A stretch of DNA of 64,000 bases from Pseudoalteromonas sp. GCY (GTDB taxonomy: Bacteria; Pseudomonadota; Gammaproteobacteria; Enterobacterales; Alteromonadaceae), in assembly GCF_016695175.1 (NCBI RefSeq), contig NZ_CP068023.1:1751501-1815500 (forward strand). The letters run 5' to 3'. Below the pieces are notes generated by a model. That model saw only the letters and a list, made by a program, of their open reading frames with translations. It was not told where the DNA came from and did no database searches. Position 1 is the stretch's first letter, and every line of letters starts with the position of its first letter. Both the position numbers and the translations under genes were made by a program. Shown here piece after piece: positions 51,468-64,000 of the stretch.

Positions 51468-52442
51468 ATGGGATTAGCAAGGAAGTATCAAATCAACTTG
51501 TCAGATACACGTTATTATCATTGTGTATCACGTTGCGTCCGCCGCGCCTTTTTGTGCGGTGAAGATATGTTGACTGGCAAATCTTATGAGCATCGGCGGG
51601 CCTAGGTTGAAATGCGATTGCTCTTTCTATCCAAAATATTTTGCCTGGATGTCTGTGCTTATGCGGTAATGCCTAATCACACCCATGTGGTGTTGTATAT
51701 CGATGATCAAAAAGCACAAAGACTCAATGATAAAGCTATTTTGCTACGCTGGAGCAAGCTTTATAAGATATCTTCACACGCTCAGCAGTTCCTGCAAGGT
51801 GAATGCTTAAATGAGGGGCAAAAAGGTGTATTGAGCAAAGAAATAAATGAATATAGAAGCCGCTTAGCGAGTATTAGCTGGTTTATGAGAGGGCTCAATG
51901 AGCACATCGCTCGACGTGCTAATCAAGAGGATGAATGTACCGGACACTTTTGGGAAGGGCGATTTAAATCTCAGGCCTTGCTTGATGCTTCAGCCTTGTT
52001 AGCATGCATGGCTTACGTAGACTTAAACCCAATTCGTGCAGAATTAGCTAGTAACCTCGAAGATTCAGAGCATACCAGCATAAAGCTTAGGTGTGAGTTT
52101 GCAAAAAGATGCAAGCAGCCAAAGTATCTAGCGCGGTTTTTAGGAAATACCAAAAGACATGTGCACAAAGGAATTCCTTTTGAATTACGGTCATATCTAG
52201 ACTTAGTTGATTCTACAGGAAGATGCATTCGTGCTGATAAACCCGGGTTTATCGATCCGCGTCAAAAACCTATTTTGGAACAATTAGGTCTAAAAGCATG
52301 TAATTGGTTTAAACTTACTACCCAGCTTGAGCAAACCTTTCACGGTGCGATCGGTAGAGCAGATTCGATAGAGGCTTATTGTGAGCATCGCAATTTAAGG
52401 CGACGAAGTAATATTTCGCAAAGCCAGCGACTTTTTACGTAA
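51468..52442 (+). pseudogene. REP-associated tyrosine transposase with an in-frame amber stop
   Basis: The frame from ATG 51468 reads GLARKYQINLSDTRYYHCVS and CVRRAFLCGEDMLTG, typical of RAYT (Y1 transposase, IS200-like) proteins. It meets TAG at 51603-51605 within SYEHRRA-TAG-VEMRLL, where the family normally has tryptophan, then continues in the same frame through the metal motif AYAVMPNHTHVVL, the SISWFMRGLNEHIARRANQE stretch and the FWEGRFKSQALLD block to 52442. The full length would be 324 residues. A single base change (TGG to TAG) explains it, so loss is recent. An internal start at 51612 could still make a truncated protein that keeps the HxH and later residues but lacks the first 48. 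Confidence 0.88.
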
Positions 52443-52609: not shown

Positions 52610-55024
52610 CTACAAATTGATTATTTTAACTAGCCTAATTGGCTCACCATCAATGTCAAACTCACCTGTAATCTCAAGTAATCCATTTTTTAATCCTTGT
52701 AACTTATCTACTTCAATTACTTGTGTTTGATAAGGTAAGAAAGTAACAGGCTGCTGCCAAAGTGAACCTTCATTTTTAAATGATTGAAATGGGGTAAAAT
52801 CGACGCGTAAGGCGCCACTCGATGCACCTGAATAGGGACCGGTTAGCGTAATGGTTATATTTTCACGAATAGTTACTTCCATTTTTACCCCATCAAAAGG
52901 TTTCTCTGGCGTTCGAAGAGGCTTATGTTGTGTTAGTCCGTTCCAACTAATCACTAAGTTCTGAAAGGTGTGTTTTGGCAATAGAACACGGTGTTCACCT
53001 GAAGCTAGAATTTTTATGTAGTTACTGTAAGTTAGCGCAATATCATGGATACTGGGATTGTTGACGTAAAGATAGTGCATTCCATCAGAAAAGTAGCCCT
53101 GAGTGTTGATACCACTTAACGTAAAGAGTGCTTCGTCGCCAAGTGTTGATTGCCAATTTTGCATCAAGCGGTCGAGGATTTTATTCTCAGTTTGAGTGAC
53201 TGTCCTTGATTTCTGTTTGCTAAATATTTCGCGAAGTGTGGTCATACAGTCACTTAACTGAGCGCTATATTCCACACAGGTGTTAAAGGCTCTGCGAAGT
53301 AGCGATGCACCTTTAAAGTGCCAGGGATTAGTGGTGTGTTCATTCGTGATCAAGTAATCATGCGCGGCAAAGTAGGGCGCTATTCTATGATTATTATTTC
53401 GGCCAAGAAGACTGATTTTTTGCAAGCTAAGCGCTGAAATGTCGATTTGGCTCAATTGTAACCTAGCCAGTTGCTCATGGTATTGTGTTTTCATTTTAAT
53501 AACTAGTGCATCGTCCTGTTTTGAAAGCGTGAGCGCAAGTTTATGATATTGCTTGATATCCATGCGTAATTGCGGCAGCAGTGCGATAGACTTCGAGGAA
53601 AACAATGCTTGATTGCTTGAGACCGTTAACTTTACTCCTTCTTGAAGGGTAAATTGCAGTAAGTTGTCTTTACTAAAATCAACTTCTTCAACTTTAGAGC
53701 GTCCAAGACGCGCATCTAAGCTTTGGTTTGTTAAATCGGCGATTAACGCAAAGCCAATTTCCCCACGTCTAATCTGCTCCGGCTCGAAGTCGATTAGTGC
53801 TGCAACACTATTCTCATCAAGTGAGTTGATTAGAGGTGTTTTATCTGGTGCGGGAAAATCCATCACGGCATGTGTAGAAGAAAAGTTTGGATGAATGTCA
53901 AGACGATTAAGTGCTTTGCTTTTGGTATTTCTGAGCCAATATGCAGCACCGTTTTGCTCCCAAGGCCCATCGACAATATAAAAACTTGGCGTGGCAGAGC
54001 GCACAAACGCTGCAAACTGCTGTTCAAGCTGGGGCCAATTGGGGAAGGTCCGTTTTAAGAGTGCATTTGCAGTTGACAAGGTGTTTTCAGAGTGAGGATT
54101 TGCGTCCATTAATTTGCCGATAAAGCGTTTAAAATATTGATATCGCTCAGGGTCGCTCAATAAAAAATGCACGATAAAAAAGTTGAGTCCGCGTTTGAGT
54201 GATGGGTCATCATTGATTGCTTCGAAAGATGGCTGTCCATTTTGGTGATATTGCTGTAAACCTAAGTGCAGATAATTCATTGGAGCACGGTCGAAAACCA
54301 TCACAGTTAGCTGCTTTTTATTTGGATCATATACGTGGCTTGCGATGGCATCTGCCATCCCCTCAGTGATCCAATTGGGTGCCCAAGTTGAGTGACCGTT
54401 CAGTGCCATATGAAACGCATGCATGGTTTCATGGATCACGATGTAGCGCTGGTGATGCTGGCGATGACTCGGAAAGTTGTACCCTGCACGGTTATAAAAC
54501 ATGGTTTCGCCGCCAGCCGTTTTATGTACGCCTCGCAAAAAGCCATCGTCCAGCATGGCTTCTTTTGTGCGTTGGCGTGAACTGCCATAGACGACAGCAA
54601 TTCTCTTTTTATCAATCGCCGCGGGTGCCATACCAAACAATTCAACATAGTGAGGGTAAGACATTTCTAGTAATTCTAAATAGAGTTTTACTTTGTCCTC
54701 AGGAAAGTCACTTTTTAACGCAAAATGTTTACTCACCCACCAGTCATACCCCCGCGAGTTAGCTATTTTTCCATCGCTATAAGTGAGCGGAATTTGTTTA
54801 CCAATATATTGGATATCGATGTGTTTCAACGTACTAACTCGGCCATTAACGCTTACTTCAGAGCGCATATCAGCGGGGCTTGGTATAGCGACAATATCGC
54901 TTCGAGTAGTTTTACATCCGCTGAGTAAAGCAAGTATTGCAATTAGAGGAGCAAATACTTGCCGGGGCTTTTGCACAGAGGGTATTCGACGATAAAAGGT
55001 ATGGAATAGATAAAATAAAGACAT
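52610..55024 (-). CDS. Large zinc metallopeptidase lipoprotein
   Basis: An 804-residue lipoprotein: basic N terminus, membrane segment and lipobox LLSGC (C37). The catalytic zinc site is H198-E199-x-x-H202 in VIHETMHAFH with E221 in WITEGMADAIA as the probable third ligand, a gluzincin (MA clan, DUF1570-like) layout. The remaining 550 residues are two or more beta-rich domains with no enzyme motif I know. Family assignment beyond the peptidase core is open. It is divergent from a POT peptide transporter 74 bases away, and an exported amidohydrolase follows that gene, which suggests extracellular peptide breakdown and uptake. Confidence 0.75.
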   Translation of the reverse strand: MSLFYLFHTFYRRIPSVQKPRQVFAPLIAILALLSGCKTTRSDIVAIPSPADMRSEVSVNGRVSTLKHIDIQYIGKQIPLTYSDGKIANSRGYDWWVSKHFALKSDFPEDKVKLYLELLEMSYPHYVELFGMAPAAIDKKRIAVVYGSSRQRTKEAMLDDGFLRGVHKTAGGETMFYNRAGYNFPSHRQHHQRYIVIHETMHAFHMALNGHSTWAPNWITEGMADAIASHVYDPNKKQLTVMVFDRAPMNYLHLGLQQYHQNGQPSFEAINDDPSLKRGLNFFIVHFLLSDPERYQYFKRFIGKLMDANPHSENTLSTANALLKRTFPNWPQLEQQFAAFVRSATPSFYIVDGPWEQNGAAYWLRNTKSKALNRLDIHPNFSSTHAVMDFPAPDKTPLINSLDENSVAALIDFEPEQIRRGEIGFALIADLTNQSLDARLGRSKVEEVDFSKDNLLQFTLQEGVKLTVSSNQALFSSKSIALLPQLRMDIKQYHKLALTLSKQDDALVIKMKTQYHEQLARLQLSQIDISALSLQKISLLGRNNNHRIAPYFAAHDYLITNEHTTNPWHFKGASLLRRAFNTCVEYSAQLSDCMTTLREIFSKQKSRTVTQTENKILDRLMQNWQSTLGDEALFTLSGINTQGYFSDGMHYLYVNNPSIHDIALTYSNYIKILASGEHRVLLPKHTFQNLVISWNGLTQHKPLRTPEKPFDGVKMEVTIRENITITLTGPYSGASSGALRVDFTPFQSFKNEGSLWQQPVTFLPYQTQVIEVDKLQGLKNGLLEITGEFDIDGEPIRLVKIINL

Positions 55025-56934: not shown

Positions 56935-58200
56935 ATGAATAAAAAAATATGGATGAGCACGGCACTCTTTGTTTCAAGCAGTGTGTACGCGCAAACGTAT
57001 GTTTTAAACGCTGACTCTGCGATTGATGTGGTGTCAGGCAAGCTTATCTCACCTGCAACTGTGGTCGTTGAAGACAATAAAATTATCTCAGTCGGAAAAT
57101 CAAATCGTAAAGCCTATCCAAAAGGCGCTGAGGTGATAGACCTAAGCGGCCACACATTATTACCCGGTCTATTTGATATGCATGTCCACCTAACTTCAGA
57201 CGCACATGTTCATGGCTACAAAAGGTTGCAACGCACTGCACCTCGAGCGGCAATCACTGGGGTTAGAAACGCCAAGCGCACACTAGATGCGGGCTTTACG
57301 TCTGTTCGTAACCTCGGTGCTGCTGGCTATGCTGACATCGCGCTGAGAGATGCCATTTATGATGGTGACGTAGCTGGTCCACGTATAAACGCAGCAGGAC
57401 CTTCTCTTGGGATCACTGGCGGTCATTGTGACAACAACCTCTTAACCCATGAGCATAAAGTCTTTTCAGAAGGGGTTGCGGATGGTCCTTGGGCAGTAAG
57501 GCAAAAGGTACGTGAAAATATTAAGTATGGCGCTAACTTAATCAAGTTCTGTGCAACAGGTGGTGTACTATCTAAAGGCACTAAGGTGGGTGCTCAGCAA
57601 TATTCTCAAGAGGAAATGACAGCTATTGTGACCGAAGCGCATTTACGCGGCTTAACAGTTGCTGCCCACGCGCATGGCACTGATGGTATCAAGTCTGCAA
57701 TTAAAGCGGGTGTGAACTCGGTAGAGCACGTGAGTTTTGTTGATGATGAAGCCATTCAACTGGCCAAAGACAAAGGCACGTATTTCTCTATGGACATCTA
57801 CAATACAGAATATATCCTTGGCGAGGGCGAAAAGGCAGGTATTTTGCCTGAAAGCTTGGATAAAGAGCGTAAAGTCGGTGCTACTCAGCGTGCCAGTTTT
57901 ATAAAAGCGGTAAAAGCAGGCGTGAATATGGTGTTTGGCTCTGACGCTGGCGTTTATCCTCACGGTGACAACGGTAAGCAGTTTAGTCGCATGGTGAAAT
58001 TTGGCATGACTGAACTACAAGCCTTACAGGCTGCCACTATTAACTCGGCGACGTTACTCAAGCAAAATACACAATTAGGCTCGCTTGAGGTGGGCAAACT
58101 TGCTGACATTATTGCGGTTAAAGGCAACCCACTAGAAGACATTAGTGTGATGGAAAACGTCACCTTTGTGATGAAAGATGGCCAAATAGAAAAGCAATAG
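56935..58200 (+). CDS. Exported amidohydrolase, imidazolonepropionase/prolidase-like
   Basis: A 421-residue exported metal-dependent hydrolase with a signal peptide (cleavage after VYA, near residue 20). Metal motifs of the amidohydrolase superfamily are all present: FDMHVHLTSD, the lysine in ANLIKFCATGG, AAHAHGTDG, SVEHVSF and GSDAGVYPHG. The nearest types are the Xaa-Pro or Xaa-Arg dipeptidases of the Sgx9260/Cc2672 group. Placed right after a POT peptide transporter (90 bases), it probably trims di- or tripeptides in the periplasm. Confidence 0.88.
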   Translation: MNKKIWMSTALFVSSSVYAQTYVLNADSAIDVVSGKLISPATVVVEDNKIISVGKSNRKAYPKGAEVIDLSGHTLLPGLFDMHVHLTSDAHVHGYKRLQRTAPRAAITGVRNAKRTLDAGFTSVRNLGAAGYADIALRDAIYDGDVAGPRINAAGPSLGITGGHCDNNLLTHEHKVFSEGVADGPWAVRQKVRENIKYGANLIKFCATGGVLSKGTKVGAQQYSQEEMTAIVTEAHLRGLTVAAHAHGTDGIKSAIKAGVNSVEHVSFVDDEAIQLAKDKGTYFSMDIYNTEYILGEGEKAGILPESLDKERKVGATQRASFIKAVKAGVNMVFGSDAGVYPHGDNGKQFSRMVKFGMTELQALQAATINSATLLKQNTQLGSLEVGKLADIIAVKGNPLEDISVMENVTFVMKDGQIEKQ

Positions 58201-58209
58201 CCAAACGTT

Positions 58210-58244
58210 CTGCGCAGTTCTTATGCAAAGAACTGCGCAGTTTT
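58210..58244 (+). terminator. Intrinsic terminator of the amidohydrolase gene
   Basis: CTGCGCAGTTCTT and AAGAACTGCGCAG form a 13-base stem followed by TTTT, 10 bases after the stop. Confidence 0.9.
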
Positions 58245-58278
58245 GCAATATATCGTTGTAATCATAATAAAAATCAGT

Positions 58279-58319: not shown

Positions 58320-59228
58320 TTAACTGTGGTTGCTCGGTAAATATTGTTCCCAATTCGACACGGCAAATGGATATTCACCCGTTACATCTACTCGACTGCG
58401 CCAAAACTGCATCGCGCCAGTATTAATCCCTTGATAGACAAAAATAACATCTGCAGCAACTCTATCTCCACTGTTGCTAACATTGACGTCAACATTGATT
58501 AGCTGATAACCATTGGGATTAGGACCATCTTGGCGGCTTTGGTAGTAAAGGTGAAATGACTGTTGGTATATTGTAGGGTTGTTATATAACACATAGTTTA
58601 ACGCGCGTGTTGCATCACTATTACCTCTAGATATATTGAGCGAAGTTATTTCAGTAACAAGGTTTTGAAACTTATCGTTATTTGCCTTGACGCCGTGCAA
58701 CACCTCACCAAATGGCAGTACCATCACTGGAATGATTGCACTAACTAGTACTGTGTTTGGTGAGTGCATCTCGCCGATAATTACTACTTGTCCGGTTTCA
58801 CCATTTGTTGTTCGATCCAGTGCGGTAATACATTGAGTTAACAGTTCATCCGTTGGAATGAGTAAAGTATAAAGTTGCTCAATGTAGCGATTGTCCAAGA
58901 CCCATTTCATGCTGCGCGCGATGTAACGATTTTTACCTAAACTCAAGCCTTTAAACAGCTCCTGATTAAGTTGCTTATTCCTGTTGAGCCTTCGTAGCGC
59001 AATGTCGTCATTGACGTTCTCCAACATGGGGAGCTGTGTTTCTTGGTTGCCCATTAAGCTATTTTGATATAGCTCTTTTTCTAGATTAAGGGTCGGAAAT
59101 TGGGCATTTATCACACCAACGGCATAGACAAAGTTTGTGAATACGACTGAAGGTTCTGAGTTTGTTTCATCGTTGGCCAACTTCTGACTAAGTGGCAAAT
59201 TTTGTTGAGTGGATAATGATTGGTTCAT
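58320..59228 (-). CDS. PatG C-terminal-like protein 1 of the R-body locus
   Basis: A 302-residue soluble protein, the last gene of the rebB operon. It shares an ordered set of motifs with its two upstream paralogues: YAVGVINAQFPTLNLEKE near residue 35, ARSMKWVLD near 105, DATRALNYVLYNNPTIYQQ near 205, and RVDVTGEYPF near the C terminus. I think the pattern is that of the C-terminal domain of the cyanobactin maturation protease PatG, here as a stand-alone protein with no protease domain. This likeness is from memory. Start set by AGGGAGG. Function unknown. Confidence 0.7.
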   Translation of the reverse strand: MNQSLSTQQNLPLSQKLANDETNSEPSVVFTNFVYAVGVINAQFPTLNLEKELYQNSLMGNQETQLPMLENVNDDIALRRLNRNKQLNQELFKGLSLGKNRYIARSMKWVLDNRYIEQLYTLLIPTDELLTQCITALDRTTNGETGQVVIIGEMHSPNTVLVSAIIPVMVLPFGEVLHGVKANNDKFQNLVTEITSLNISRGNSDATRALNYVLYNNPTIYQQSFHLYYQSRQDGPNPNGYQLINVDVNVSNSGDRVAADVIFVYQGINTGAMQFWRSRVDVTGEYPFAVSNWEQYLPSNHS

Positions 59229-59237
59229 GAAGCCTCC

Positions 59238-60032
59238 CTAAATACTTTTCGCAAATGGCGCTAGTCTGGATGAAACAAAAGGATAGTGGTTGGTTACGTC
59301 GATATTACAGGCATAGCGGCTACGATCTGAACTACACAGAATAAACTCAACAACGTGGCGCATTGGTTCAGAGTGTATCTGTTGCAATTGAATAGCTTGA
59401 ATATCATTAATCAATAAGTGTTGGCTGCTATCAACGACGATTTGATAGAAGTGACTCAAAAAATAGTTACTGGCTCTGTCTTTTTTAGTTAACCCAATAG
59501 TAGGCTTAAGTGCGGGCAGCTCAAGCTGTTGATTGGCTGGTTTACCATCTTTGAGTATTGGAACTTGGATATCGGTAACTGCGATTAGGTGCTTTACCGT
59601 GGCGGTTGGTAAAGCGATGTCATCGTAGTGCTGTGCGGCATGTTCGCCTGTTAGCTCGCCAATAACCACATAAGTATTTTTTTGCTCTGTTGTATTGATC
59701 AGTGCATTCAGTTGTGTCGGTGTATCTGGCTCAAGGATGTAAGTGTCTACCAGGTTTATGGTAAGAACCCATGTTGCCTGCTGCGCTAAATATAAAAATG
59801 GCCTGTAACTCAACTGAGGTTGATTGTCCATGGTTACGCGATAGTTGAACACTTTATAAAACTCTTCGGGATTGGCCTTTATAGACAACGCAGCAGCTTC
59901 ATATTGCTTTTCGAGGTTTAAGGTCGGAAAGCTTGGTTGAATAACACCAATTGCATAAATAGATGTATCATGGTTGTCATGAGGCGCAAACTGTATTGGC
60001 ACTGTTTTACCATTGTGAATTGAGGTCTTCAT
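59238..60032 (-). CDS. PatG C-terminal-like protein 2 of the R-body locus
   Basis: A 264-residue paralogue of the genes on both sides: YAIGVIQPSFPTLNLEKQ near residue 26, AQQATWVLTI near 90, DRASNYFLSHFYQIV near 185, and NIDVTNHYPF at the C terminus. It is the shortest of the three, with a reduced middle region. It starts behind AAGGAAGG, 18 bases after the preceding gene's stop and 9 bases before the next start. Soluble; no catalytic motif seen. Confidence 0.7.
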   Translation of the reverse strand: MKTSIHNGKTVPIQFAPHDNHDTSIYAIGVIQPSFPTLNLEKQYEAAALSIKANPEEFYKVFNYRVTMDNQPQLSYRPFLYLAQQATWVLTINLVDTYILEPDTPTQLNALINTTEQKNTYVVIGELTGEHAAQHYDDIALPTATVKHLIAVTDIQVPILKDGKPANQQLELPALKPTIGLTKKDRASNYFLSHFYQIVVDSSQHLLINDIQAIQLQQIHSEPMRHVVEFILCSSDRSRYACNIDVTNHYPFVSSRLAPFAKSI

Positions 60033-60050
60033 TTCTATCCTTCCTTTGCA

Positions 60051-61067
60051 TTAATCTTGTGGCATCGTATTCAGCAGCGGGAGGAATTGTTGTATTTCTG
60101 TATTGATAAAAGGATACAAGCCACTCACGTCGATACGACAAAAGTAATAGTGATGTTTAGCAGAAGCGTTTTCTTTATAGGTTAGCGTAATATCAACAAT
60201 CTTATGTTCAGACACCGCGTCAAATTGGGAAAACGTGATGTCGGTTAGAGAAGCACTTGGCAGGGTTGCGGACCCAAGACGCATTTTATGGGTTTGTAAG
60301 TAGATATCTGGATAGCGAAATGCAACAAAATTCTTAGCTCTATCAAAGTCATCACGGCCTGCATTTGGTTCGACTTCTAGTGCTTTTATCACATCTTGAA
60401 TGGCATTGGTTTCCGCACTGGAAATTTTTTGAATTGTATTATGCAGCTCTGACAATGTTTGATGATATACCTGATGACAAGCTATCTCAGCTAAATTGGT
60501 GTCGTGGTTATTAGAGGAATGGCCAATGACACAAGTATACACAAGCTCCAGTGTATCTTTAGGTGGCTGTAGCGCTTCAATTAGCGCTTCTAACTCGACT
60601 TTTGTCGCGGGAGTTAAGTGGTAACTTAGCTGTTTTTGAATGACTAAAATCCAAGAAACTTGCTCAGCAAGATAAAGATACTTGTCTCTGTTAGGATCCC
60701 CAATCGGCAATGATTTATTAGTGAAAACTTCGTAATAGGCTCTTTCATCGACTGCGAGCTCCATTGCGGCTTGTAAAAATTGCTTTTCTATTCCCTCATT
60801 AGGAAAGACTATTTCTACTTGGCCCACTGCATAAATGTAGTCAAAAGCGGCGCATTGCACGGAAGTAGGATGCTGAATTTCCTGCGCTTGCATTTGCTCG
60901 GATGAGTCAAGGTCTTGCGGGGTGCTCGGTAGCCTAGCATCGTTTGTTTCTACCGGCGCTATGCCAAAAGTGTCTGAGTCACAAGTTTGGCTATCTTGTG
61001 TTTCAGCTTTTTTAGAACTGCAAATTGCGGGATCTGCTGAGGTGACCTCAGGGTGTAATTCGCTCAT
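60051..61067 (-). CDS. PatG C-terminal-like protein 3 of the R-body locus
   Basis: A 338-residue paralogue with an extra acidic, low-complexity N-terminal segment of about 75 residues before the shared domain: YAVGQVEIVFPNEGIEKQ, AEQVSWILVI, DDFDRAKNFVAFRYPDIYLQ and RIDVSGLYPF. ATG 61067 follows AAAGAGAATAAT; a GTG at 61106 inside a hairpin is less likely. It lies 56 bases after the rebB stop, with a perfect hairpin between. The acidic N terminus might be an interaction or targeting tail; that is a guess. Confidence 0.7.
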   Translation of the reverse strand: MSELHPEVTSADPAICSSKKAETQDSQTCDSDTFGIAPVETNDARLPSTPQDLDSSEQMQAQEIQHPTSVQCAAFDYIYAVGQVEIVFPNEGIEKQFLQAAMELAVDERAYYEVFTNKSLPIGDPNRDKYLYLAEQVSWILVIQKQLSYHLTPATKVELEALIEALQPPKDTLELVYTCVIGHSSNNHDTNLAEIACHQVYHQTLSELHNTIQKISSAETNAIQDVIKALEVEPNAGRDDFDRAKNFVAFRYPDIYLQTHKMRLGSATLPSASLTDITFSQFDAVSEHKIVDITLTYKENASAKHHYYFCRIDVSGLYPFINTEIQQFLPLLNTMPQD

Positions 61068-61088
61068 ATTATTCTCTTTTTTGATGAG

Positions 61089-61114
61089 GAAGTGCTGATG
61101 GAGCACAGCACTTC
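61089..61114 (-). promoter_or_regulatory. Hairpin between rebB and the downstream operon genes
   Basis: GAAGTGCTG and CAGCACTTC form a perfect 9-base stem with an 8-base loop, 10 bases after the rebB stop. It lacks a T tract. It may stabilise the rebB part of the message or partly end transcription, giving more RebB than the downstream proteins. Confidence 0.55.
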
Positions 61115-61123
61115 ACTTTGATG

Positions 61124-61396
61124 TTAACTACTTGCAAGGATCTTCTTCGTTGCAATACCTGTAGTTGCTGTGTCTATCGAATAGAGGGTTGTAACACCCA
61201 TAGTGGTGGCAGCTTGAGCAGTAACAGCCATTTGCTGCTGAGCTGTGGTTGCATTATGAGCTGCGTTTGCAAGCGCTTGTGAAGTTGCTTGGAACAAGTT
61301 ACCCATTGACATTGCTGGAGCATCACCTAGTACTTTTACGTTTGCTTGGGTGACTGAGTCAGTGATTTGATCGTTTACAGAAGTTGGAAATGCCAT
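61124..61396 (-). CDS. rebB: RebB-type R-body structural protein
   Basis: A 90-residue protein rich in Ala, Thr, Gln and Asn. Its sequence is that of the RebB family (R-body or killing-trait proteins): FPTSVNDQITDSVTQANVKV at the N terminus, then DAPAMSMGNLFQATSQALAN and AAHNATTAQQQM. In Caedibacter the Reb proteins polymerise into ribbons that coil up and unroll when the pH drops, breaking membranes. Strong ribosome binding site AAGGAAAA. It leads an operon with three paralogous genes. Only one Reb structural gene is in the window, whereas the known type uses several small Reb proteins, so others may lie past the right edge. Confidence 0.85.
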   Translation of the reverse strand: MAFPTSVNDQITDSVTQANVKVLGDAPAMSMGNLFQATSQALANAAHNATTAQQQMAVTAQAATTMGVTTLYSIDTATTGIATKKILASS

Positions 61397-61595
61397 AATT
61401 TTTTCCTTAATGGTTAGTTGCTTTTTAGCGTTATTAACTAAAGAATAATGTAGCCCGCTCCGTCACAGATGTTTTGGTTTAACTAACTGTTTTTATGGTA
61501 GATTAGACGACTTTCAAGCGCGCAATATTTAACAGTGTTTGGTGGTTTTTACGCATTGCGGCTGTACGATTGAGCTAAGGCTGGTATTGACGGTG

Positions 61596-61644
61596 TAAAA
61601 ATAACCCCATCGTGAGAGCTCCATACTTTCCTCGCAATGGGGTT
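61596..61644 (-). terminator. Terminator of the AAA+ ATPase transcript
   Basis: On the minus strand AACCCCAT and ATGGGGTT close a long imperfect hairpin that is followed by ATTTTT. It separates the ATPase transcript from rebB, which should then have its own promoter in 61397-61590. Confidence 0.65.
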
Positions 61645-61656
61645 AGTCATTAGCTA

Positions 61657-61665
61657 TGCCTGTCC
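61657..61665 (-). repeat. GGACAGGCA repeat inside the R-body locus
   Basis: TATGCCTGTCCATC is the reverse complement of the GGACAGGCA core. It lies between the ATPase terminator and the relic frame after the ATPase gene. Confidence 0.45.
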
Positions 61666-61694
61666 ATCAAAAGGTTTAAGCTACAACTCGTTTA

Positions 61695-61934
61695 TCAGCT
61701 AAGGAATGCTTTATTCGCTGTCAGCTTTTGATTCACAGCGAACTTGCCCCTTAGCTCAGTCACCTGCTGACTAAACCACTTTTGATAAAGTGGGCATAAA
61801 TTGACATTTCCAACTGAGTTGGCATTTTTAACTATATCGCGGGCCGCTTTTACCAACTTGGTAGAAGTTATGATGTTTGCAAATTGTGAGTTTAACCAGT
61901 CTGTGAAAAAGTAAAAGGTGTGAGTGTGAAGAGA
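61695..61934 (-). pseudogene. 79-codon open frame in phase after the ATPase stop
   Basis: Directly after the TGA of the ATPase gene the same frame stays open for 79 codons and reads like protein (FFTDWLNSQFANIIT, then LVKAARDIVKNAN and CPLYQKWFSQQVTEL), ending at TGA 61695-61697. It has no ATG or GTG start near its head. It may be an old C-terminal part cut off by a nonsense change, or a relic of another gene. It is still in front of the ATPase terminator, so it is transcribed with that gene. Confidence 0.45.
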
Positions 61935-63308
61935 TCACCACCTAAGTTGAGTTTGATGCTCAGAAAGTCGACTTATGCCCTCACGAATATCCGTCATGGA
62001 TATCTCTGTGCGCGCTTCGCTGAGCAATCTTAATGATACAAAGCGTAATACATTGATAATATCTGCTCCACTTAGTGGATATTGCTCTGCAAGTTTGTTT
62101 AAGCATACGTTGCTTGACAGGCTAGATTGGTGACAAAGTCCGCTTTGCCAAATTTCCAGTCGCTGTGCAGCCCTTGGTGCTTGAAATTGGACAATCGATT
62201 CAAATCGGCGAAAAAACGCGTCGTCGATATTATCTTTATAGTTTGAAGCTAAGATCACCACACCGCTAAAGCTTTCAATACGCTGCAGCAGATAGGCGAC
62301 ATTTTGATTAGCAAACTGATCGTTAGAAGAGGTGGTTTTTAAGCGCTTAGTGAAAAGCGCGTCCGCTTCATCAAAGAAAAGGATCCAGTCACGATGCTCT
62401 GCAAGGCTAAACAGCTGTTCAAGGTTTTTCTCTGTTTCTCCAATGTACTTTGAGGTGATCAGCGATAAATCGACCTTATAGACTGATTTATCTAGTATTT
62501 TTCCAAGTACGCTCGCCGTTAGGGTTTTTCCTGTTCCGGGAGGGCCGTAAAACAGTGCACGGTAACCGGGGCGGAGTTGTTTACCAATTTTCCATTGCGT
62601 TTGTAGTGTCTTGCCATATTGAACCCAAGTAATAATTTCGTTTAGCTGATGACGAGTGGTATCTGGTAGCTTTACATCATCCCATTCAAGTGCTGTGTTT
62701 ACTTGGGTTGCAGGAAACTGATGACTTGTTTCTGGCCGATATGGCTCTGCAGTAGTGAACATTTGTATAAACTCGGGTTTAAGAACCAGGGGGATGTTTA
62801 ATCGTGATATACCCTCAGATTCTCGATGACTGTCCACCATAAGGTTAAGCAATTGGCTGGAGTGGAGCGTTTGAAGGACATCAAACTCCGTGTTGAGATT
62901 ATTTCCGTCAAGAATGAATGCCGCCGTGATCCCCGTTGTGAATATCTGCCCTTGAGATTCTTGTATACCAAACTCACTGAAAGGGCGGTTTGTTTGTTCG
63001 TTGATTGACAGGAAAATGTCGAGTACAGGGGCTTTGATAACCGGAACAAATGCTAGAATAATTAATAATCTTTCAATCAGGTTTGGCTTGCTGCGGGTAA
63101 TAAAGTCCGCAAATTGAGAGTCTGAGTTATCTAGCGTAGGTGGCAGTGGAAATTCTTGCTCAGTATTCTCGAGTGACTGTCCAAAGTAATGTGACACACG
63201 ATATTGAATAGCATGCTGCAGCCAGTCGCACTCTTGTTCTACGTCTTTGGCATTTAAAGCCGCTTTGGAAGGAGTTTGAGCTAAAGGCTCAAAGTTAGAT
63301 TGCCACAT
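61935..63308 (-). CDS. AAA+ ATPase of the R-body locus
   Basis: A 457-residue AAA+ protein. The C-terminal half holds the module: Walker A GPPGTGKT (255-262), pore-like segment KYIGETEKNL, Walker B ILFFDEADALF (309-319), sensor 1 ILASNYKDNID and arginine finger RRF (367-369). The N-terminal 220 residues are of a type I associate with ATPases found in loci of extracellular contractile injection systems and similar assemblies, with LPPTLDNSDSQFADFI at the start. It probably remodels or unfolds proteins to help assembly. Good ribosome binding site AAGGAAG. Separate transcript from rebB, same strand. Confidence 0.85.
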   Translation of the reverse strand: MWQSNFEPLAQTPSKAALNAKDVEQECDWLQHAIQYRVSHYFGQSLENTEQEFPLPPTLDNSDSQFADFITRSKPNLIERLLIILAFVPVIKAPVLDIFLSINEQTNRPFSEFGIQESQGQIFTTGITAAFILDGNNLNTEFDVLQTLHSSQLLNLMVDSHRESEGISRLNIPLVLKPEFIQMFTTAEPYRPETSHQFPATQVNTALEWDDVKLPDTTRHQLNEIITWVQYGKTLQTQWKIGKQLRPGYRALFYGPPGTGKTLTASVLGKILDKSVYKVDLSLITSKYIGETEKNLEQLFSLAEHRDWILFFDEADALFTKRLKTTSSNDQFANQNVAYLLQRIESFSGVVILASNYKDNIDDAFFRRFESIVQFQAPRAAQRLEIWQSGLCHQSSLSSNVCLNKLAEQYPLSGADIINVLRFVSLRLLSEARTEISMTDIREGISRLSEHQTQLRW

Positions 63309-63451
63309 TTTACTTCCTTATTTTCTAAATAAGCGTTCCACAGTGTAGTTTGTACGGCTGCGAATCTGATTGGCAACTTTAGGGATTATGTTGGTATAAC
63401 AGACTAATTGCTGCAGGTTCTTTTATTTAAGAGGTGGTTGGTTACGTAAAA

Positions 63452-63477
63452 GAGCAGGCGAGTTGGTTATCCTGCTC
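63452..63477 (-). terminator. Hairpin after the unknown protein at the window end
   Basis: GAGCAGG and CCTGCTC pair around a 12-base loop and on the minus strand are followed by TTTTACG. A weak terminator is possible. Confidence 0.5.
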
Positions 63478-63493
63478 AGTCTTTACATAAAGA

Positions 63494-64000
63494 TCATTGA
63501 AGTGCCCAGTAAATTGGGTAAGTACCTGAGTTTTCGCCAATCATAATTGTGCGTATTGTGGTGCCACTGTTTGATTCTTCAAATGGAGTATAAGTTGATT
63601 CAAGTACACGGCCGTTAGTTTGCTGCTGTAGCTGCACCTCATCGCCTAAAATACCTATTGAATAACCTGACTGAAATATATAGTGTTCAATTTCTTGTAT
63701 TTGATCAGATTTAGCACCATTGTCATTGTCTTTTAGCTGTAGCCAAACTGTCGTACCGATAGGAATAGAGGCGCTATTTAACAGGTCAAGAACGTTGTTA
63801 GCTATATCAAGAGGATTGTTATTTGTGTTATTGATAGAAGACACATTGAGGATAAACATCGGCATCAATGCCAGCGCGTATCCGTGCTTGTCACTGGTGC
63901 CCGTAATTCTGTCGGTTTCTTGAGCCGTTAGCGCAACATCCCACTCATTGTCTTGTGTGTTAAGGTTGCGCATACAAAAGCTATAACCTTCGCCTTTATA
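63494..64000 (-). CDS. Unknown protein of the R-body locus, 5' end probably outside the window
   Basis: The frame from the ATG at 63973 encodes 159 residues, but it stays open upstream for all 9 remaining codons to the window edge, and the ATG has no well-spaced ribosome binding site, so the gene may begin beyond position 64000. The visible part has a polar N-terminal portion (NLNTQDNEWDVALTAQETDRITGTSDKHG), a middle with MPMFILNVSSI and NNTNNNPLDIANNVLDLLN, and an end rich in Ser, Thr and Gly. No family is recognised and no membrane helix is clear. It is on the same strand as the ATPase and rebB and likely part of the locus. Confidence 0.6.
   Translation of the reverse strand, partial: YKGEGYSFCMRNLNTQDNEWDVALTAQETDRITGTSDKHGYALALMPMFILNVSSINNTNNNPLDIANNVLDLLNSASIPIGTTVWLQLKDNDNGAKSDQIQEIEHYIFQSGYSIGILGDEVQLQQQTNGRVLESTYTPFEESNSGTTIRTIMIGENSGTYPIYWALQ

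Follow-up and report, generated by a model that had tools for sequence, protein, structure and literature searches.

Why should a gene for an R-body protein stand at the head of an operon with three copies of a domain known from cyanobactin maturation? We met this arrangement in Pseudoalteromonas sp. GCY (a genome of two contigs, completeness 100), at the end of a 64,000-nucleotide stretch of contig NZ_CP068023.1, hereafter the window (positions 1 to 64,000), where the genes occupy the minus strand from 58320 to 64000. A first-pass annotation had recognized a rebB gene, three paralogues of the C-terminal domain of unknown function of the protease PatG (PatG-DUF), and an AAA+ ATPase upstream, and had proposed that these partners might process, cap, load, or regulate the R-body. 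The cluster is real, conserved, and unusual. On balance, we judge it to be an AraC-controlled R-body cluster that carries its own cargo-loading module, of the type found with extracellular contractile injection systems (eCISs).

The genes lie at the positions and on the strand first given. The 90-residue product of rebB (61124..61396) belongs to the RebB family (PF11747, E value of 1.6e-30); we call it the dedicated RebB, since a main reb operon lies farther upstream. It is followed, after gaps of 56, 18, and 9 bases, by the PatG-DUF paralogues at position 1 (60051..61067; 338 amino acids [aa] from an ATG, with an alternative GTG start possible at 61106 and about 75 unconserved N-terminal residues), position 2 (59238..60032; 264 aa; PF18047 E value of 3e-14), and position 3 (58320..59228; 302 aa; PF18047 E value of 4.9e-11, PF18065 E value of 4.7e-9). 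Their identity as the PatG domain without a protease was borne out: all three exceed the cut-off for PatG_D (PF18047) and two that for PatG_C (PF18065), the middle one scoring 15.4 bits against 25.9, and the motifs by which they had been recognized are invariant columns of their alignment (YA-G, FP, EK, W, RA-N, and DV--YPF). The upstream gene (61935..63308; 457 aa) does encode an AAA+ ATPase, with an N domain and one AAA domain (PF00004, E value of 1.4e-28; Walker A at residue 255, Walker B at 309, FFRRFE at 365), but it is less close to the operon than had been supposed, being separated from rebB by 538 bases that hold a terminator-like hairpin with a U run (61592..61660, minus strand; -21.4 kcal/mol, z of -2.70). 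An uncharacterized gene farther upstream is also present, but it is cut by the window end: the frame occupies 63494..64000 and starts at 64156, giving a 220-aa protein that matched no Pfam or NCBIfam family and whose gene was found at 11 of 22 other PatG loci compared.

Beyond the window end, the cluster runs on upstream for about 11.5 kb on the minus strand, as far as C2:1827025. Counting from its regulators, it encodes a STAND ATPase, an AraC protein with a sigma-54-type AAA domain, Reb proteins of 98, 88, and 88 aa, Reb-type proteins of 71, 132, and 119 aa, proteins of 335 aa, 155 aa (perhaps coiled-coil-like, our own label), 469 aa, and 85 aa, an eCIS_core (DUF4157) protein, two small proteins, a GH18 protein, the 220-aa protein, the ATPase, RebB, and the three PatG-DUF proteins. 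More reb genes do lie past position 64000, where the first-pass annotation had proposed to look; six PF11747 matches exceed the cut-off within 12 kb, the window's rebB included, and the 119-aa protein scores below it. The eCIS_core protein (PF13699, E value of 5.5e-12) has an HELGH motif; its frame is 274 aa, and close relatives start at the position of an inner methionine here, which would give 139 aa.

The paralogues and the ATPase travel with rebB in other genomes. Among 108 Pseudoalteromonas genomes, RebB is present in 33 and PatG_D in 9, all of them among the 33 (9/33 Reb-bearing versus 0/75 Reb-free genomes; Fisher P value of 1e-5, uncorrected for kinship). In eight of the nine, a RebB gene has three PatG_D genes behind it, all with the same orientation; G301, the ninth, has one PatG-DUF gene, regulators, and a Reb gene 12 kb away, an arrangement that looks like a deletion remnant. 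A two-peptide-pattern scan with one genome per species returned 19 loci, extending to Shewanella, Vibrio, Marinomonas, Oceanospirillum, and Algicola, and a Photobacterium plasmid supplied a further one. After merging there were 23 distinct loci, with L103 (P. luteoviolacea HI1) counted together with the near-identical G325. Near PatG, the ATPase was found at 21 of these and eCIS_core at 20, and Reb was on the same fetched stretch at 17. The ATPase and eCIS_core are missing at L109 (a 6.9-kb contig) and at the remnant in G301, and eCIS_core also at L118 (a contig start). Reb is missing from the stretches of L109, L112, and L118, which meet contig ends and have Reb on other contigs, and from those of L113 (Oceanospirillum D5), L114 (Marinomonas MED121), and L115. 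RebB was nonetheless found in all 22 searchable genomes or records behind the 23 loci (for Photobacterium, the plasmid only; the L115 genome was left out). PatG-DUF without Reb was seen in one genome (G137) and in four rhizobial and Streptomyces plasmid records, where the plasmids only were searched. That the parts of the cluster belong together is well supported.

What the parts might do together is suggested by the genes beyond the window end. The accessible text of Evans and Waterfield (PMC11495950) describes how Pvc15 associates leader-tagged payloads with the Photorhabdus virulence cassette, and that of Geller et al. (PMC8213781) describes DUF4157 as an eCIS core domain linked to toxins. 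In eCIS cargo loading, as here, an AAA+ ATPase, an eCIS_core protein with HExxH, and variable effectors with N-terminal leaders come together. With its eCIS_core protein, its leader proteins of eCIS type, and an ATPase related to copies at eCIS loci, the neighborhood favors loading among the four roles first proposed. There are differences from the eCIS arrangement: Pvc15 has two AAA domains and the cluster ATPase one, the module here is linked to reb, and searches of the GCY genome for the tail terminator (PF14065) and the tail tube (PF06841) gave no match, the tail sheath not being searched for. The same searches were positive for the terminator in 14 of 21 genomes or records and for the tube in 11 of 17.

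Ten eCIS-terminator genomes were compared for ATPases. Five (G387, G403, G405, G407, and G411) have a second full-length relative on the terminator's contig, in four cases (all except G403) with an eCIS_core gene within 4 kb; the remaining five have only longer, Pvc15-type ATPases there, and such longer frames (647 to 708 aa) score about 230 to 250 bits on the family profile versus 650 to 770. In a tree of 41 ATPases, the 17 R-body-locus copies fall on one side of a branch with 100/100 support, accompanied by eight unassigned proteins, one of them from Marinomonas mediterranea. This species also has a PatG-DUF protein, and the accessible part of PMC3583457, citing earlier work, reports it as an R-body maker. 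In a metagenome-derived genome, a Reb-type gene (143-aa frame; G411 C35, about 44660, L177) lies about 8 to 9 kb from an eCIS-locus ATPase/eCIS_core pair.

Between eCIS_core and the ATPase, many genes vary from genome to genome. This slot was examined at 21 loci, less L118, which has no eCIS_core in its stretch, with open reading frames (ORFs) of at least 100 aa called mechanically. An MY start is found in 24/73 slot ORFs versus 6/256 elsewhere in the same loci; counted by family, the figures are 16/44 versus 5/178 (P value of 4e-9). A 223-aa slot protein in GCY has the leader MYTQVEKSKENK...DNR, and its first 75 residues match three proteins: one from the P. aurantia eCIS locus, encoded next to eCIS_core (E value of 1.6e-5), one from the Oceanospirillum PatG locus (9.4e-5), and one from the Oceanospirillum eCIS locus (3.9e-4). 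Conserved slot genes without a leader include a LysM-like 130-aa gene, a 174-aa gene, and GH18, and the slot also has transposase-like ORFs; the Shewanella slot holds a class 3 lipase and a lysozyme-family protein, both leaderless. A Pfam search of 19 cargo-slot and nearby proteins gave weak matches only: two slot proteins match toxin domains below the cut-off (XOO_2897-like deaminase, 25.6 bits versus 27; Ntox30, 20.2 versus 25), and matches to C58 peptidase, DUF4156, Big_9, and SH3_3 (E values of 0.009 to 0.04) were taken as chance. In one genome (L186, G325 C1, 11067-16016), an HNH C-terminal piece, the 85-aa gene, and eCIS_core are repeated on either side of a leader protein, as if recombination had exchanged a cargo cassette. 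The joining of reb genes and genes resembling eCIS cargo-loading parts in one cluster suggests that the ribbons may carry protein toxins.

A shared upstream sequence links the module to the reb genes. The box TACCA-N18-CCAA lies upstream of both rebB (61474..61500) and the ATPase (63370..63396) on the minus strand, and in the form TACCA-N18/19-CCAA it precedes the dedicated rebB and the first main reb gene in 10/10 three-PatG genomes each. Other upstream regions of these loci hold it in 17/279 cases, all before cluster genes (the 220-aa gene in nine, the ATPase in three, variable cargo in three, GH18 in one, and a conserved 172-aa gene in one), and it also stands before eCIS_core in most three-PatG genomes. 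Vibrio ostreicida, outside the discovery set, has it before the main reb genes, eCIS_core, the 220-aa gene, and a PatG-DUF gene. Among the sites at 11 loci, 64 fall inside the cluster span on the cluster strand, 4 lie on the opposite strand, and 4 are outside the span, of which one is a main reb promoter past the 20-kb limit; the spans in G386 and G387 reach a second Reb gene. Five eCIS loci were examined for the box, and none was found ahead of their ATPase or eCIS_core genes; the same holds for reb in six R-body clusters that have no module. A half-site spacing of about 21 to 22 bases suits an AraC protein. The distribution of the box suggests that the cluster is one AraC-controlled regulon, to which the regulator would bind at this sequence.

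The docking of cargo would fall to the dedicated RebB and the PatG-DUF proteins. The dedicated RebB shares 94% identity by local or 91% by global alignment with the first main Reb in GCY and 86 to 91% across the 10 genomes compared, so it can plausibly enter the same ribbon; against Protein Data Bank (PDB) sequences it gave a single chance row and no solved relative. PatG-DUF likewise found no relative among PDB sequences (one chance row, E value of 0.88) and matches the cyanobactin PatG domain (PDB 4uvq) by fold comparison only, at 14% identity; unlike that domain, it stands alone, in two or three diverged copies and without a protease. The tree splits PatG-DUF into three positions (support of 100/99, 99/98, and 82/89 for positions 1, 2, and 3). 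At two-gene loci, the first gene sides with positions 1 and 2 (100/99) and the second with position 3 (98/99), and the second genes do not form one group alone. The branching suggests that the genes derive from an old pair of different subunits, one of which was doubled later; a heterooligomeric adaptor would fit such a history better than redundant copies. On the Photobacterium plasmid, the second PatG-DUF gene is split over two frames (L078, 14810-15798).

Six simple reb clusters (G331, G336, G307, G404 C11, G407 C75, and G408 C8) have many Reb genes and none of the accessory genes; an AraC gene was recognized in five. The accessory type was mapped in eleven genomes, and V. ostreicida (G404) carries both kinds. 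Seven of the 24 Reb-bearing, PatG-free Pseudoalteromonas genomes were searched for eCIS_core, and all seven lack it; the R-body-type ATPase is present in 0/29 Reb-bearing, PatG-free genomes, and 5/29 have an ATPase scoring like the eCIS-locus copies. In GCY, the cluster sits between an amidohydrolase gene and an NDH-like gene (our label). Five relatives (G339, G365, G327, G368, and G340; L096, L043-L046, and L049) have a diverged Reb gene between the same flanks, which may be a remnant or a precursor. As the flanks are the same and enclose 786 bases in G339 versus about 18 kb here, the cluster comes or goes as a unit.

We therefore put forward a model, about evenly poised between right and wrong in our estimation, in which R-bodies are loaded effector-delivery devices: the ribbon, a device independent of phage tails, would have taken over the contractile injection system's loading apparatus (AAA+ ATPase, DUF4157 protein, and exchangeable leader-tagged toxins), and the PatG-DUF proteins would be the new adaptors that connect it to a dedicated Reb subunit. 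The AraC/AAA and STAND regulators would turn on several transcription units through the shared box, and the main Reb proteins, as expected of their family, would polymerize into a coiled ribbon. Cluster-encoded cargo with an MYxQ leader, together with the eCIS_core protein, would be handled by the ATPase, which by analogy with Pvc15 may unfold and load it. The PatG-DUF proteins, as two or three old, different subunits, would serve as noncatalytic adaptors that dock cargo to the dedicated RebB, which in turn would copolymerize into the ribbon. On ingestion or lysis of the cell, the ribbon would unroll, as the R-body literature leads one to expect, and the cargo would be freed.

Several observations weigh against this model. 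Cargo on R-bodies is a prediction from gene content. Module-free R-body clusters are common in the genus, so the module is not needed for ribbons as such. In the 14 genomes or records with an eCIS terminator gene, cargo could serve the eCIS, and the reb genes found in two genomes, Marinomonas MED121 and Oceanospirillum D5, lie inside contigs other than those of PatG and eCIS_core. The MY start was first noticed in the data then used for counting, two thirds of slot ORFs do not have it (the Shewanella lipase and lysozyme among them), and the leader similarity is modest for a search among several thousand ORFs (E values of 1.6e-5 to 4e-4). The box was first recognized by visual inspection of 14 upstream regions from 7 of the three-PatG genomes, so that the 10/10 counts are not independent; in the window alone it is weak (4 sites versus 1.12 expected, with 4/100 shuffles as high), and no site turned up ahead of cluster genes at nine two-PatG loci (L111-L118 and Photobacterium). 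One further two-PatG locus, L119, has a single site, before PatG-DUF.

The alternative that survives best, which we consider unlikely, is that the ATPase and PatG-DUF are ribbon assembly factors (a chaperone, a cap, or a control of length or disassembly) and the small neighbors are unrelated toxins. The 56-base spacing of PatG-DUF from a Reb gene here, and its linkage to one in the three-PatG Pseudoalteromonas clusters, would suit such a role, and we know of no catalytic motif in the domain. However, clusters of the same genus (G331, G336, and G307) have neither gene, V. ostreicida has both kinds of cluster, and the eCIS_core protein, the leaders, and the box before some cargo genes are left unexplained. 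It is also conceivable, if improbable, that an eCIS acting in trans draws on the eCIS-like genes and leader proteins as stored cargo, and that these stand beside reb by chance or shared mobility; relatives of the leader, eCIS_core, and the ATPase do occur at eCIS loci in some of the same genomes. Yet neither eCIS marker was found in six genomes, some of them draft assemblies (GCY [G000], G301, G338, G386, G404, and G408), and all of these except G301 keep the module; the R-body-locus ATPases form their own group, and the reb-promoter box was not seen ahead of the ATPase or eCIS_core at the five eCIS loci examined.

More doubtful still is a cyanobactin-like peptide maturation, in which PatG-DUF would offer either the tails of Reb proteins or the leaders to a protease located elsewhere. 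The domain is the same as in PatG, and an S8 peptidase is annotated near PatG-DUF in three of the four rhizobial and Streptomyces plasmid records (not in that of S. xanthophaeus); but a Pfam scan of the 21 cluster genes and two neighbors, the rest of the genome lying outside it, found no S8 peptidase, and the five copies from Reb-free records group apart (99/99), that of G137 on a very long branch. An antiphage defense island is very improbable, since the resemblances of the ATPase to IteA (100.5 bits, NCBIfam) and of the 469-aa protein to the HNH nuclease PtuB (35.1 bits) fall far below their cut-offs (510 and 150 bits), and the ATPase shares its box with reb promoters.

The cluster has partial counterparts among described systems. 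Raymann's group 1 reb loci, in the accessible part of PMC3583457, likewise have several Reb and Reb-like small genes and a 335-aa gene; the latter and its neighbors correspond to HP1.4-HP1.3-HP1.2-HP1.1 by size and order only, and HP2.1/HP2.2 are about as large as the 220-aa gene. The partners in section 11 of that part omit eCIS_core, the AAA+ ATPase, variable leader proteins, a dedicated rebB, and PatG-DUF. The reb cluster of Pseudomonas aeruginosa PA14 also has a non-Reb R-body partner protein, RapA, but uses RcgA/FecI2 with it, and "ATPase" and "PatG" are absent from the main text of PMC8322103; the accessible part of PMC13430693 has no words starting with either term. The reb island of V. 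coralliilyticus linked to oyster-larva mortality (PMC7457808) was considered as an instance of this cluster and set aside, as the table in the accessible part fits the simple AraC-plus-Reb kind. A literature search, outside which most subscription papers and preprints lay, found nothing linking R-bodies and PatG; for R-bodies and contractile injection systems it returned only a cited R-body title, and DUF4157 was unmentioned in the R-body, reb, and cyanobactin literature among the matches listed.

Between rebB and the first PatG-DUF gene lies a 9-bp hairpin (61068..61123, minus strand; -15.3 kcal/mol, z of -4.22) without a U run, a possible mRNA stabilizer or attenuator that perhaps sets much Reb against little PatG-DUF. 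Where the last PatG-DUF gene and the amidohydrolase gene converge, a strong hairpin (58198..58252; minus-strand fold of -22.5 kcal/mol, z of -4.57) has a T run on the plus strand only and is thus a terminator for the plus-strand gene, perhaps for both. In simple scans of the region for promoters and terminators, site numbers were about equal to those in shuffles. An 804-aa protein with an HETMH stretch (52610-55024, minus strand) had no Pfam match at an E value of 0.01 and is retained beside the cluster site in G338 and G339. One transposase-like ORF family, which we take to be REP-type, occurs near the cluster here (51612-52442) and, in Shewanella and V. ostreicida, within the cargo slot itself (L108, 2675-3742; L110, 3743-4231).

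According to the accessible part of PMC3583457, RebA, RebB, and RebC are enough for ribbons in E. coli and not for killing, and the killing partners are still unnamed. The cluster puts names to candidates for each role (cargo, loader, adaptor, and docking subunit), and a genome in which no eCIS was found makes the question directly testable. If the loaded-ribbon model is true, eCIS-type effectors would have a second chassis in the R-body, and the slot proteins would be candidates for the long-missing R-body toxins; an effector-loading module would be able to move between two unrelated delivery machines, and the PatG domain would have its first role.

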